Source: Lachnospiraceae bacterium (GTDB lineage: Bacteria; Bacillota; Clostridia; Lachnospirales; Lachnospiraceae). From it: a DNA stretch of 34,931 bases. This document shows positions 30,208 through 31,894 of this stretch, one piece after another. Each line of letters starts with the position of its first letter. Position 1 is the first letter of the stretch. The notes beneath the pieces were generated by a model. The model was not told where the DNA came from and made no database searches. It was given only the letters and a program-made list of their open reading frames with translations. The DNA lies in the NCBI GenBank assembly GCA_017614155.1, contig JAGACK010000059.1:1-34931 (forward strand). The letters are read 5' to 3'. The position numbers were made by a program, and so were the translations under genes.

Positions 30208-30618
30208 TTGGCTGCAAAAAAAGCAAAAGTTACGGATAGATATTACGGCACCGGCAGGAGGAAGAAATCAGTTGCCAGAGTATATCTGCTTCCCGGTGAC
30301 GGAAAGATCACGATCAACAAGCGTGACATAGATGATTATTTCGGAATGGAAACACTGAAGACCATAGTTCGTCAGCCTCTTGTTGCTACATCAACAGTCG
30401 GAAAATATGACGTACAGGTCAATGTATTTGGAGGAGGATATACCGGACAGGCAGGAGCTATCCGCCACGGCATTTCCAGAGCTCTTACCCAGATTGATGA
30501 TGAGTACCGCCCCATCCTCAAAAAGGAAGGATTTCTCACCAGAGATCCCCGTATGAAGGAAAGGAAGAAGTACGGTCTCAAGGGAGCAAGAAGAGCTCCA
30601 CAGTTTTCAAAGAGGTAA
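30208..30618 (+). CDS. rpsI: 30S ribosomal protein S9
   Basis: 136 residues from TTG, nine bases after [49 protein letters not shown] and the invariant C-terminal tail ([11 protein letters not shown]), which reaches the P-site tRNA, identify it. The start gives [16 protein letters not shown], a short lysine-rich lead. The stop is followed without a gap by a large palindromic element. Confidence 0.97.
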
Positions 30619-30778
30619 GGATTACTGCGAATTGCAGTATATGGAAGGAGTTCCCGAGCTTGCTCGAGGAACTCTTTTCATATACTGCAATTCATTGGAA
30701 GACAGGAAATGACCGAGGAAAATGCGAAGCATTTTTCGAGGTTGTTTCCTGTATTCGCAGTAATCCGTATTCCAATGA
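30619..30778 (+). repeat. nested palindromic element after rpsI
   Basis: The outer pair is GGATTACTGCGAAT (30619-30632) and its exact complement at 30753-30766. Inside, 30629-30693 forms a hairpin of 30 pairs: 15 perfect, then 11 with two G-T pairs, a single bulged A, and four more closing a CTTG tetraloop. A second hairpin, 30702-30752, has ACAGGAAA/TTTCCTGT, a tandem G-A mismatch and a GAA loop. A further pair, TCATTGGAA (30692-30700) with TTCCAATGA (30770-30778), conflicts with the outer stem. No T run, so not a simple terminator. No ORF fits. Function is unknown. Confidence 0.75.
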
Positions 30779-30786
30779 CACACACA

Positions 30787-30815
30787 TTGCAACGTATTGC
30801 TATATTTGCTACACT
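30787..30815 (+). promoter_or_regulatory. promoter of the GH5-HerA-like-XpaC operon
   Basis: TTGCAA (30787-30792) and TACACT (30810-30815) with a 17-base spacer, directly after the palindromic element and about 50 bases before the GH5 start. The -35 equals that of the S10 promoter. Confidence 0.6.
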
Positions 30816-30865
30816 AAAGATTGGTGCTGTTGGGAAGTACCTTATTAATCATGGGGGATACAATT

Positions 30866-31894
30866 ATGAAAAAGATGACAGGCTGGGAGCATGGTGTAAA
30901 TTTCGGCGGATGGCTTTCACAGAGTGATCATACAAAGGAAAGGTATGACACCTTTATAAAGGCTGATGATTTCAAGATCGTAAAGGAATGGGGCGTCGAC
31001 CATGTCAGGATCCCGGTGGATTACGATCTGGTAGAGGACAAAGAAGGAAACTACAAAGAAGAAGGCTTTTCTTATATTCAGATGGCAATAGATGAATGCA
31101 AAAAGAACGGTCTGAATATGATCCTGGATCTCCACAGGACCTTTGGTTATTCATTTGACGAAAATCACGGCGAAAGAGGTTTTTTTGACAGCAGGGAGTA
31201 TCAGGAGCGTTTCTACAGGCTCTGGGAGGAATTCGCAAAAAGATTTGCATCCTGCAAAGAGATGCTGCTCTTTGAGCTGCTGAACGAGGTCACAAAGAGC
31301 GCCTACAAGGATAAATGGAATCAGATCAGCGACACATGCATACGAAGGATCAGAAAGATCTCGCCCGATATAGGGATAATCGTGGGAGGCTATCATTATA
31401 ATAACATAGCATCGCTCCCGTCACTCTATCCTCCTCAGGATGATAATATAATATATACCTTCCATTTTTATGAACCCATAATCCTGACGCATCAGGGAGC
31501 TGCATGGATAGAGAGAATGGATACATCCTTCAGGATCGGCGCAGATGCATCATACAAAGAGATGGCGGAGGCTACCAGGAAGTATGTCGATCCTGATTTC
31601 GAAGGCTTTCCGGGAATGGATCAGGACGCATCGGTCTCTGAAGAGTTCTTCGAAAAGAAATTTGAAAAAGCGGTTGCTCTTGCAGAGGAGAGAGGCACGG
31701 CGCTTTACTGCGGAGAATACGGGGTGATCGATCTGGCAGGACCGGATGTCGCCATCAAATGGTATCGTCTTATCAGCAGAGCATTTGAAAAATACGGGAT
31801 AGGCAGAGCAGCCTGGAACTATAAGCAGATGGATTTCGGGATAGACGAGCCCTACATGGAGGGTATCAGGGACGAAGTGATAAAGCTGCTTTAA
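30866..31894 (+). CDS. GH5-type glycoside hydrolase without signal peptide
   Basis: 342 residues. HGVNFGGWLSQ opens the (beta/alpha)8 barrel; LFELLNEV carries the acid/base E141 (N140 before it), FHFYEP has H200 and Y202, YCGEYG the nucleophile E284, and AAWNYKQMDFG W317, all as in family 5. Such enzymes cut beta-glucans, mannans or related glycans. No signal peptide or anchor is visible, so it should work in the cytoplasm, probably on imported oligosaccharides. ATG at 30866 follows GGGGG by eight bases and lies after the promoter; an in-frame TTG at 30821 lies only six bases after the -10 and is rejected. Substrate unknown. Confidence 0.87.
   Translation: MKKMTGWEHGVNFGGWLSQSDHTKERYDTFIKADDFKIVKEWGVDHVRIPVDYDLVEDKEGNYKEEGFSYIQMAIDECKKNGLNMILDLHRTFGYSFDENHGERGFFDSREYQERFYRLWEEFAKRFASCKEMLLFELLNEVTKSAYKDKWNQISDTCIRRIRKISPDIGIIVGGYHYNNIASLPSLYPPQDDNIIYTFHFYEPIILTHQGAAWIERMDTSFRIGADASYKEMAEATRKYVDPDFEGFPGMDQDASVSEEFFEKKFEKAVALAEERGTALYCGEYGVIDLAGPDVAIKWYRLISRAFEKYGIGRAAWNYKQMDFGIDEPYMEGIRDEVIKLL

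Follow-up and report, generated by a model that had tools for sequence, protein, structure and literature searches.

What is the 148-bp non-coding structure that begins with the first base after the stop codon of rpsI and occupies positions 30619-30766 of the window, the stretch of 34,931 nucleotides of a Lachnospiraceae bacterium analysed here? Small structured intergenic elements are commonly classed either with RNA genes or with scattered repeats. The element at rpsI combines covariation of the RNA type with indications that it spread horizontally to one site, the 3' end of an essential ribosomal gene. Starting from the computed fold, its covariation and one-strand bias, the link to rpsI, a patchy and discordant distribution, one exact insertion and an integrase hotspot, we give a probability of roughly 0.6 to the reading that the element is a horizontally spreading non-coding cassette which carries its own terminator and is located at a tyrosine-integrase hotspot at the 3' end of rpsI. 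A literature search, covering few subscription papers, found no description of the cassette. The features of the locus are collected in Table 1.

Table 1. Position of the element, its predicted parts and the neighbouring genes in the window.
Feature	Position	Strand	Basis
rpsI (30S ribosomal protein S9), stop codon TAA at 30616-30618	30208..30618	+	NCBIfam NF001099, 194.8 bits (cut-off 112)
Outer stem P1, 5' strand GGATTACTGC	30619..30628	+	Favoured fold; 10/10 P1 pairs changed on both sides among 20 copies
Arm 1, long hairpin of ~30 pairs capped by a CTTG loop (30659-30662), with A bulged out at 30667	30629..30693	+	Predicted fold
Terminator-like core of arm 1, with TTTT (30675-30678) after a G+C-rich stem	30647..30678	+	Sequence
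Junction linker ATTG, joins arms 1 and 2	30694..30697	+	Favoured fold
Arm 2, internal loop of tandem G-A (30715-30716 opposite 30738-30739), apex GCGAAGC at 30724-30730 with GAA loop	30698..30756	+	Favoured fold
Outer stem P1, 3' strand GCAGTAATCC	30757..30766	+	Covariation, predicted fold
ATTCCAATG, linker region in inverted copy, interpreted as debris and not as a regulatory partner	30770..30778	+	Pair probability ~1e-9
Downstream gene, glycosyl hydrolase family 5	30821..31894	+	Pfam PF00150, 129 bits

As judged from the folding models the structure at 30619-30766 is genuine, either as RNA or as single-stranded DNA. Compared to dinucleotide shuffles, of which 0 out of 200 equalled the native sequence in each of the three calculations, the RNA fold has a z-score of -12.2 in a 201-nt context (-97.7 kcal/mol) and of -14.5 for 160 nt, and the DNA fold of the 148 nt has a z-score of -13.9. 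The favoured fold is predicted to be a single dominant three-way junction built from P1, arm 1, the ATTG linker and arm 2, and the loop of arm 1 reads G(CTTG)C in its context in the window copy. The original prediction had let the structure start at the first base past the rpsI stop and had described a tandem G-A and a GAA loop in the second arm, and both descriptions hold. Its perfect 14-bp outer stem exists as complementarity (30619-30632 with 30753-30766), but only 10 bp (30619-30628 with 30757-30766) are paired in the favoured fold: the last four pairs compete with bases of the arms, the fourteenth has a predicted probability of about 0.01, and the variant with a 14-bp stem reaches -93.7 kcal/mol versus -96.8 kcal/mol for the favoured fold with its 10-bp P1. 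A promoter, which had been placed 3' of the element, gave no hit in a sigma-70 consensus scan of 30550-30900, a scan that leaves other promoters possible. A start similar to that of the downstream gene is also seen by eye 3' of rpsI in G324 and in the element-free G327.

The conservation of the structure was studied with a covariance model (R1) built on five rpsI-side copies and with an alignment of 20 copies (A2), which was fitted to the model, favours structure and G-U, and retains rows that are nearly identical or in tandem (L003 and L246; two of L192). Standard pairs occupy 94.8% of the cells in A2, compared to 35-48% in a control with the partners slid by 1-3 columns, and both-sided changes occur at 60 of the 62 pairs, including all ten of P1, figures which lean towards structure because A2 was fitted to the model. 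The loop of arm 1 is CTTG or TTTA in every one of the 20 copies, and the internal loop of arm 2 is GA/GA in 17 of them. G-U cells are far more frequent than A-C cells (73 versus 9), a bias found in 18 out of 20 sequences. Because of this bias the sense strand points to being the selected molecule, either as RNA or as one of the two DNA strands. Selection on the structure and compensatory changes in relatives, the former suspected and the latter named as a check in the original prediction, are thus borne out by one favoured strand and by the 60 pairs changed on both sides among the 20 copies. The exception is P1 with two G-U and two A-C among 190 cells. Almost without G-U, P1 has the look of an inverted repeat that bounds the cassette at the DNA level, and with its ten covarying pairs it provides the terminal inverted repeats typical of MITEs.

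Arm 1 resembles intrinsic terminators in that a G+C-rich stem is followed by a T-tract; its 3' strand has at least six T in eight bases in 18 of the 20 copies and five in eight in the window copy. The motif scan of 30550-30900 did not list arm 1 as a terminator. In contrast to intrinsic terminators, arm 1 is embedded in a three-way junction, the second outer strand of which follows about 80 bases past the T-tract. Arm 2 is often lost, and the copies without arm 2 (L415, L443, L452, L455) retain arm 1. From these sequences we infer that arm 1 acts as a terminator and that it is the portion retained by the host; the role at the 3' end which had been considered for the element may be one of its functions. 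If arm 1 terminates, it is hard to see why arm 2 and P1 are conserved and why arm 2 has a G-U bias of the RNA type. Since arm 2 and the second P1 strand lie past arm 1, their formation would require RNA that reads through the terminator or else single-stranded DNA, and a read-through RNA or a single-stranded DNA stage may explain the bias in arm 2.

How closely is the element tied to rpsI? Within its own genome (assembly 94.67% complete, 59 contigs) an R1 search of both strands yields one locus, and no tandem or dispersed copies were found elsewhere in the window. Of the 299 family genomes, for each of which the best 9 or 10 candidates were scored, 132 have a match at E <= 0.01, many of them weak, and rpsI is present in 19 of the 30 loci L186-L215, the window included. 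Scored in antisense, the window itself reaches 49.7 bits; therefore R1 matches of 45-60 bits off rpsI were not counted as members. The covariance model took the place of a criterion that asked for a multiloop in the predicted fold, which was not stringent enough and accepted 39 out of 101 rpsI 3' regions. A 19-mer taken from P1 and arm 1 has exact matches at 24 places among 84,980 species genomes, a collection which possibly lacks the window's own record. Directly 3' of rpsI are 22 of these, one is found behind a detached rpsI tail (L459, the short tail only) and one is unrelated (L466); rpsI ends at gap 0 in 21, and L445 holds the C-terminus of S9 at a contig edge. The loci are labelled Lachnospiraceae (18), Acetatifactor (2), Tyzzerella, Clostridiales, "uncultured bacterium" and, for L466, Clostridiaceae (one each).

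The rpsI 3' regions themselves were sampled from 180 genomes, of which 164 yielded S9 and from which 110 regions were taken; 100 of these were searched, as nine of at most 144 nt were left out and one (L378) was moved to the same-genus set. R1 matches ten of the 100 loci, all in sense orientation, including the window, two partial copies (L303, L356) and a relative at 60 bits (L273). Many of the remaining regions open with what appears by eye to be an ordinary terminator. The same-genus set (29 regions plus L378) is positive in 7 out of 30, counting elements, partial copies and weak relatives, again all in sense, with L424, L440 and L442 counted as relatives behind rpsI at scores of 40.8-49.7 bits. 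Taken together, the orientation at the rpsI-side loci is sense in 17 of 17. Related architectures, scoring 66-89 bits with R1 and starting at most ten bases past the stop, are found behind prfA (three genomes) as well as behind tsf, argS and groEL (one each; genes assigned by NCBIfam).

A constant site and a constant sense orientation, strong covariation and a G-U bias that extends to arm 2 would suit a vertically inherited, strongly constrained structure in the rplM-rpsI 3'-UTR, combining terminator and stabiliser, that was lost many times. We consider this explanation unlikely. On a tree of L13 and S9 the presence or absence of the element clusters weakly, requiring at least 13 changes compared to a mean of 17.0 for shuffled labels, with an equally low number in 22 of 500 shuffles; the clustering is in accordance with some vertical inheritance, the number of changes speaks against it. 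Comparing the window with its sister G299, the identity is 87% for rpsI and 92% for the first 79 bases of the element, while with G156, a member of another genus, rpsI falls to 74% and the same element bases reach 95%. Enough sequence for pairwise comparison was available in 33 of 38 loci, and over the resulting 528 pairs, which are not independent, identity in rpsI and identity in the element have a rank correlation of 0.15. The loci with the 19-mer (171 pairs), a group selected to be identical at 19 of the 82 bases, have mean identities of 74.9% for rpsI and 87.7% for the element. Outside this group (357 pairs) the element, with 72.7%, is no more alike than rpsI with 73.7%.

Vertical descent is further opposed by an exact empty site. 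G323 contains an exact insertion of 148 bp between TAA and TCG in comparison to its element-free congeners G326 and G308, to which its right flank is identical in 57 of 60 bases at the position just past their stop. As G078 from another genus is empty as well (60/73 identity), an insertion in G323 is the simpler reading. The 6 bp AGATAA, stop included, flank the insertion on both sides in this single case, which undoes the earlier argument that an exact insertion is improbable because its removal would destroy the S9 stop; a direct repeat of this kind is established for G323 alone and not for the window copy. On the tree the sister of G323 is G313, which has a different structure slightly further downstream, and sisters that differ in structure and, slightly, in insertion point fit vertical descent as poorly as the frequent loss of arm 2 does. 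In G327, a close relative of the window lineage (S9 96% identical), an ordinary terminator takes the position of the cassette in front of a similar downstream gene, and in G156, G114 and G038 an ordinary terminator appears to follow the cassette (all by eye). The distribution is patchy and discordant with the divergence of rpsI.

If the cassette is mobile, which machinery could move it? Homology to tyrosine integrases is found just 3' of rpsI in 15 of the 100 loci, three of them fragments of 22-31 residues, and two of the integrase query proteins match PF00589. Excerpts of two reports place integrative elements in the same gene, namely ICEs in rpsI of Streptococcus (PMC4701971) and ICE_RhoA2-183_rpsI in rpsI of Roseburia hominis (PMC12904643). 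Judged by sequence, the 3' end of rpsI is an integration hotspot. As far as these excerpts go, the integrative elements share the target gene with the cassette and likewise keep the stop codon, presumably exchanging the downstream DNA, but they carry an integrase and other genes, whereas the cassette has 148 bp and is gene-free.

A single contig of G301 (C126, L252 2-1000) combines, in this order, an integrase (PF00589, 88.4 bits), a detached rpsI tail of 51 nt which encodes 16 of 16 S9 residues, and a cassette without arm 2 which scores 48.2 bits with R1; the full rpsI of this genome is found elsewhere and is followed by an ordinary terminator. This arrangement reads as the junction of an attachment site. 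In G361 one structured element stands behind rpsI, and a second contig carries a short rpsI tail with the cassette behind it. In G212 the rpsI tail and the cassette are repeated about 1.5 kb apart, and G137 has a cassette, repeats of arm 2 and an integrase remnant of 33 residues. Candidates for a duplicated attachment core are AGATAA in G323 and the repeated rpsI tail in G212, G361 and G301. Since the cassette lies on the displaced (far) side of the inserted DNA in G301 and G361, these loci place a hotspot at the border of the cassette and do not demonstrate its transport. Among 35 loci with an element or a relative, with downstream sequence from less than 0.1 kb to about 8 kb, integrase homology was found in one (G137), and none of the 100 sampled loci combines the element with integrase homology. 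When 127 loci were screened strictly for another rpsI tail further downstream of the gene, none turned up (the repeat in G212 exceeds the allowed mismatches). A search for detached tails gave 84 matches, nearly all of them regions starting inside rpsI or contig edges, with L252 as the sole tail inside a locus that lacks rpsI; the shorter tail of L459 came from another search.

According to the horizontally spreading cassette that we favour, these 148 bp would spread among Lachnospiraceae and settle in sense orientation directly past the rpsI stop, where arm 1 would serve as the intrinsic terminator of the rplM-rpsI transcript. In the lineage of the window the cassette would occupy the position which in the close relative is held by the ordinary terminator, and integrases targeting rpsI may help to move or exchange it. 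If true, the element offers a case, open to experiment, in which species swap a portable terminator at a hotspot for integrative elements, and it warns that strong covariation by itself is no proof of a conserved host RNA. A bolder version, which we regard as conceivable and put forward tentatively, is that of a gene-less mini integrative element: tyrosine integrases targeting rpsI would mobilise the cassette in trans, the core would keep the rpsI stop, the terminator brought along would make repeated integration harmless, and parallel cassettes would be those behind prfA, tsf, argS and groEL. The arrangement in G301 has slightly raised the odds that we give to this version.

The element could also be a genome-wide dispersed palindromic repeat, MITE-like or similar to the Clostridiales-1 RNA, that is found behind rpsI by chance, which we judge improbable. 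Look-alikes with a long arm, a small hairpin and a GA module are indeed scattered in G038, G099, G025 and G046, and the dispersed palindromic repeat of the original prediction suits these look-alikes; the rpsI type is tied to rpsI and has a single locus in its own genome, and 23 of the 24 loci with the exact 19-mer are behind rpsI or its tail. BOX and ERIC are non-coding, palindromic and mobile-looking repeats of ~100-200 bp. Another dispersed structured bacterial repeat is bcr1, as described in part of PMC2267715. Such repeats are multi-copy and scattered, in contrast to the rpsI element with one copy in its genome, at one gene.

With the Rfam family Clostridiales-1 (RF01699), which is listed in a table within the available part of PMC2864571, the element shares by eye the occurrence in Lachnospiraceae, several arms, an outer stem, a first arm with a CTTG loop and a GCGAAGC-like apex in the last arm. 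Its score of 36.2 bits over the full length of RF01699 stays below the gathering score of 48, and R1 in turn matched none of the 31 RF01699 copies L153-L183 at E <= 0.1. An identity with Clostridiales-1 was therefore rejected. Clostridiales-1 is often multi-copy and unoriented, the upstream neighbour being in sense at 14 and in antisense at 17 of the 31 loci, different from the single-copy element bound to rpsI. An Rfam search of 12 loci, the stretch of the window included, returned nothing at E <= 0.1, and other Rfam matches (microRNA families, traJ-II) were weaker still and are read as noise from long hairpins. Clostridiales-1 itself behaves as a dispersed repeat, with a match in 164 of the 299 family genomes and at least nine copies in many, as counted from the best 9 or 10 candidates per genome.

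Several other repeats came up in these searches. The dispersed elements in G038, G099, G046 and G025 (L379-L387, L391-L396) occur in either orientation to neighbouring genes and have, besides an outer stem that in some ends with GTAACTGTTCAG/CTGAACAGTTAC, one long arm, one arm with GA/GCGAAGC and a small hairpin of the form GGCG..GCC. In G096 (L191 / L456) arm 2 contains a nested insert that starts with GATGCC and ends with GGCATC, resembling the outer stem of Clostridiales-1. Within the same genus (L232, L244, L224, L226) there is a multi-copy repeat with several hairpins that ends in AACGAGCAAAAAGCGAAGCGTTTGCGAGTT, and L227 (G327:C92) has GA/GCGAAGC hairpins in a region that appears to follow the end of a 23S rRNA. 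The one Y1-transposase gene of the window's own genome (L403, G000:C4; a frame of 278 aa) has long GGGGACGG palindromes on either side; as these are unrelated to the element, a REP/RAYT (IS200-like) link was rejected. Loci from a scan of viral contigs with a 14-mer pattern were not used, the pattern being too short to be very informative.

The original prediction, finally, had seen mutually exclusive folds, in which a 9-bp pair (30692-30700 with 30770-30778) crosses the outer stem. This pair is present as sequence; its predicted probability is about 1e-9, and forcing it costs about 14 kcal/mol (-82.7 versus -96.8). Neither of the sister genomes checked, G299 and G324, retains both of its halves: ATTCCAATG is missing from G299, and G324 has ATTCCAATG but has lost CATTGGAAT. 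A regulatory RNA with two mutually exclusive states is therefore highly improbable, for although the sequence does hold the 14-bp complementarity and the 9-bp crossing pair, a single fold dominates, the two halves are not jointly retained, and two comparable and conserved alternative folds were not found. In G324 (L415) the linker stretch AATTCATTGGAAT is inverted between TGC and GCA, possibly by a template-switch event.
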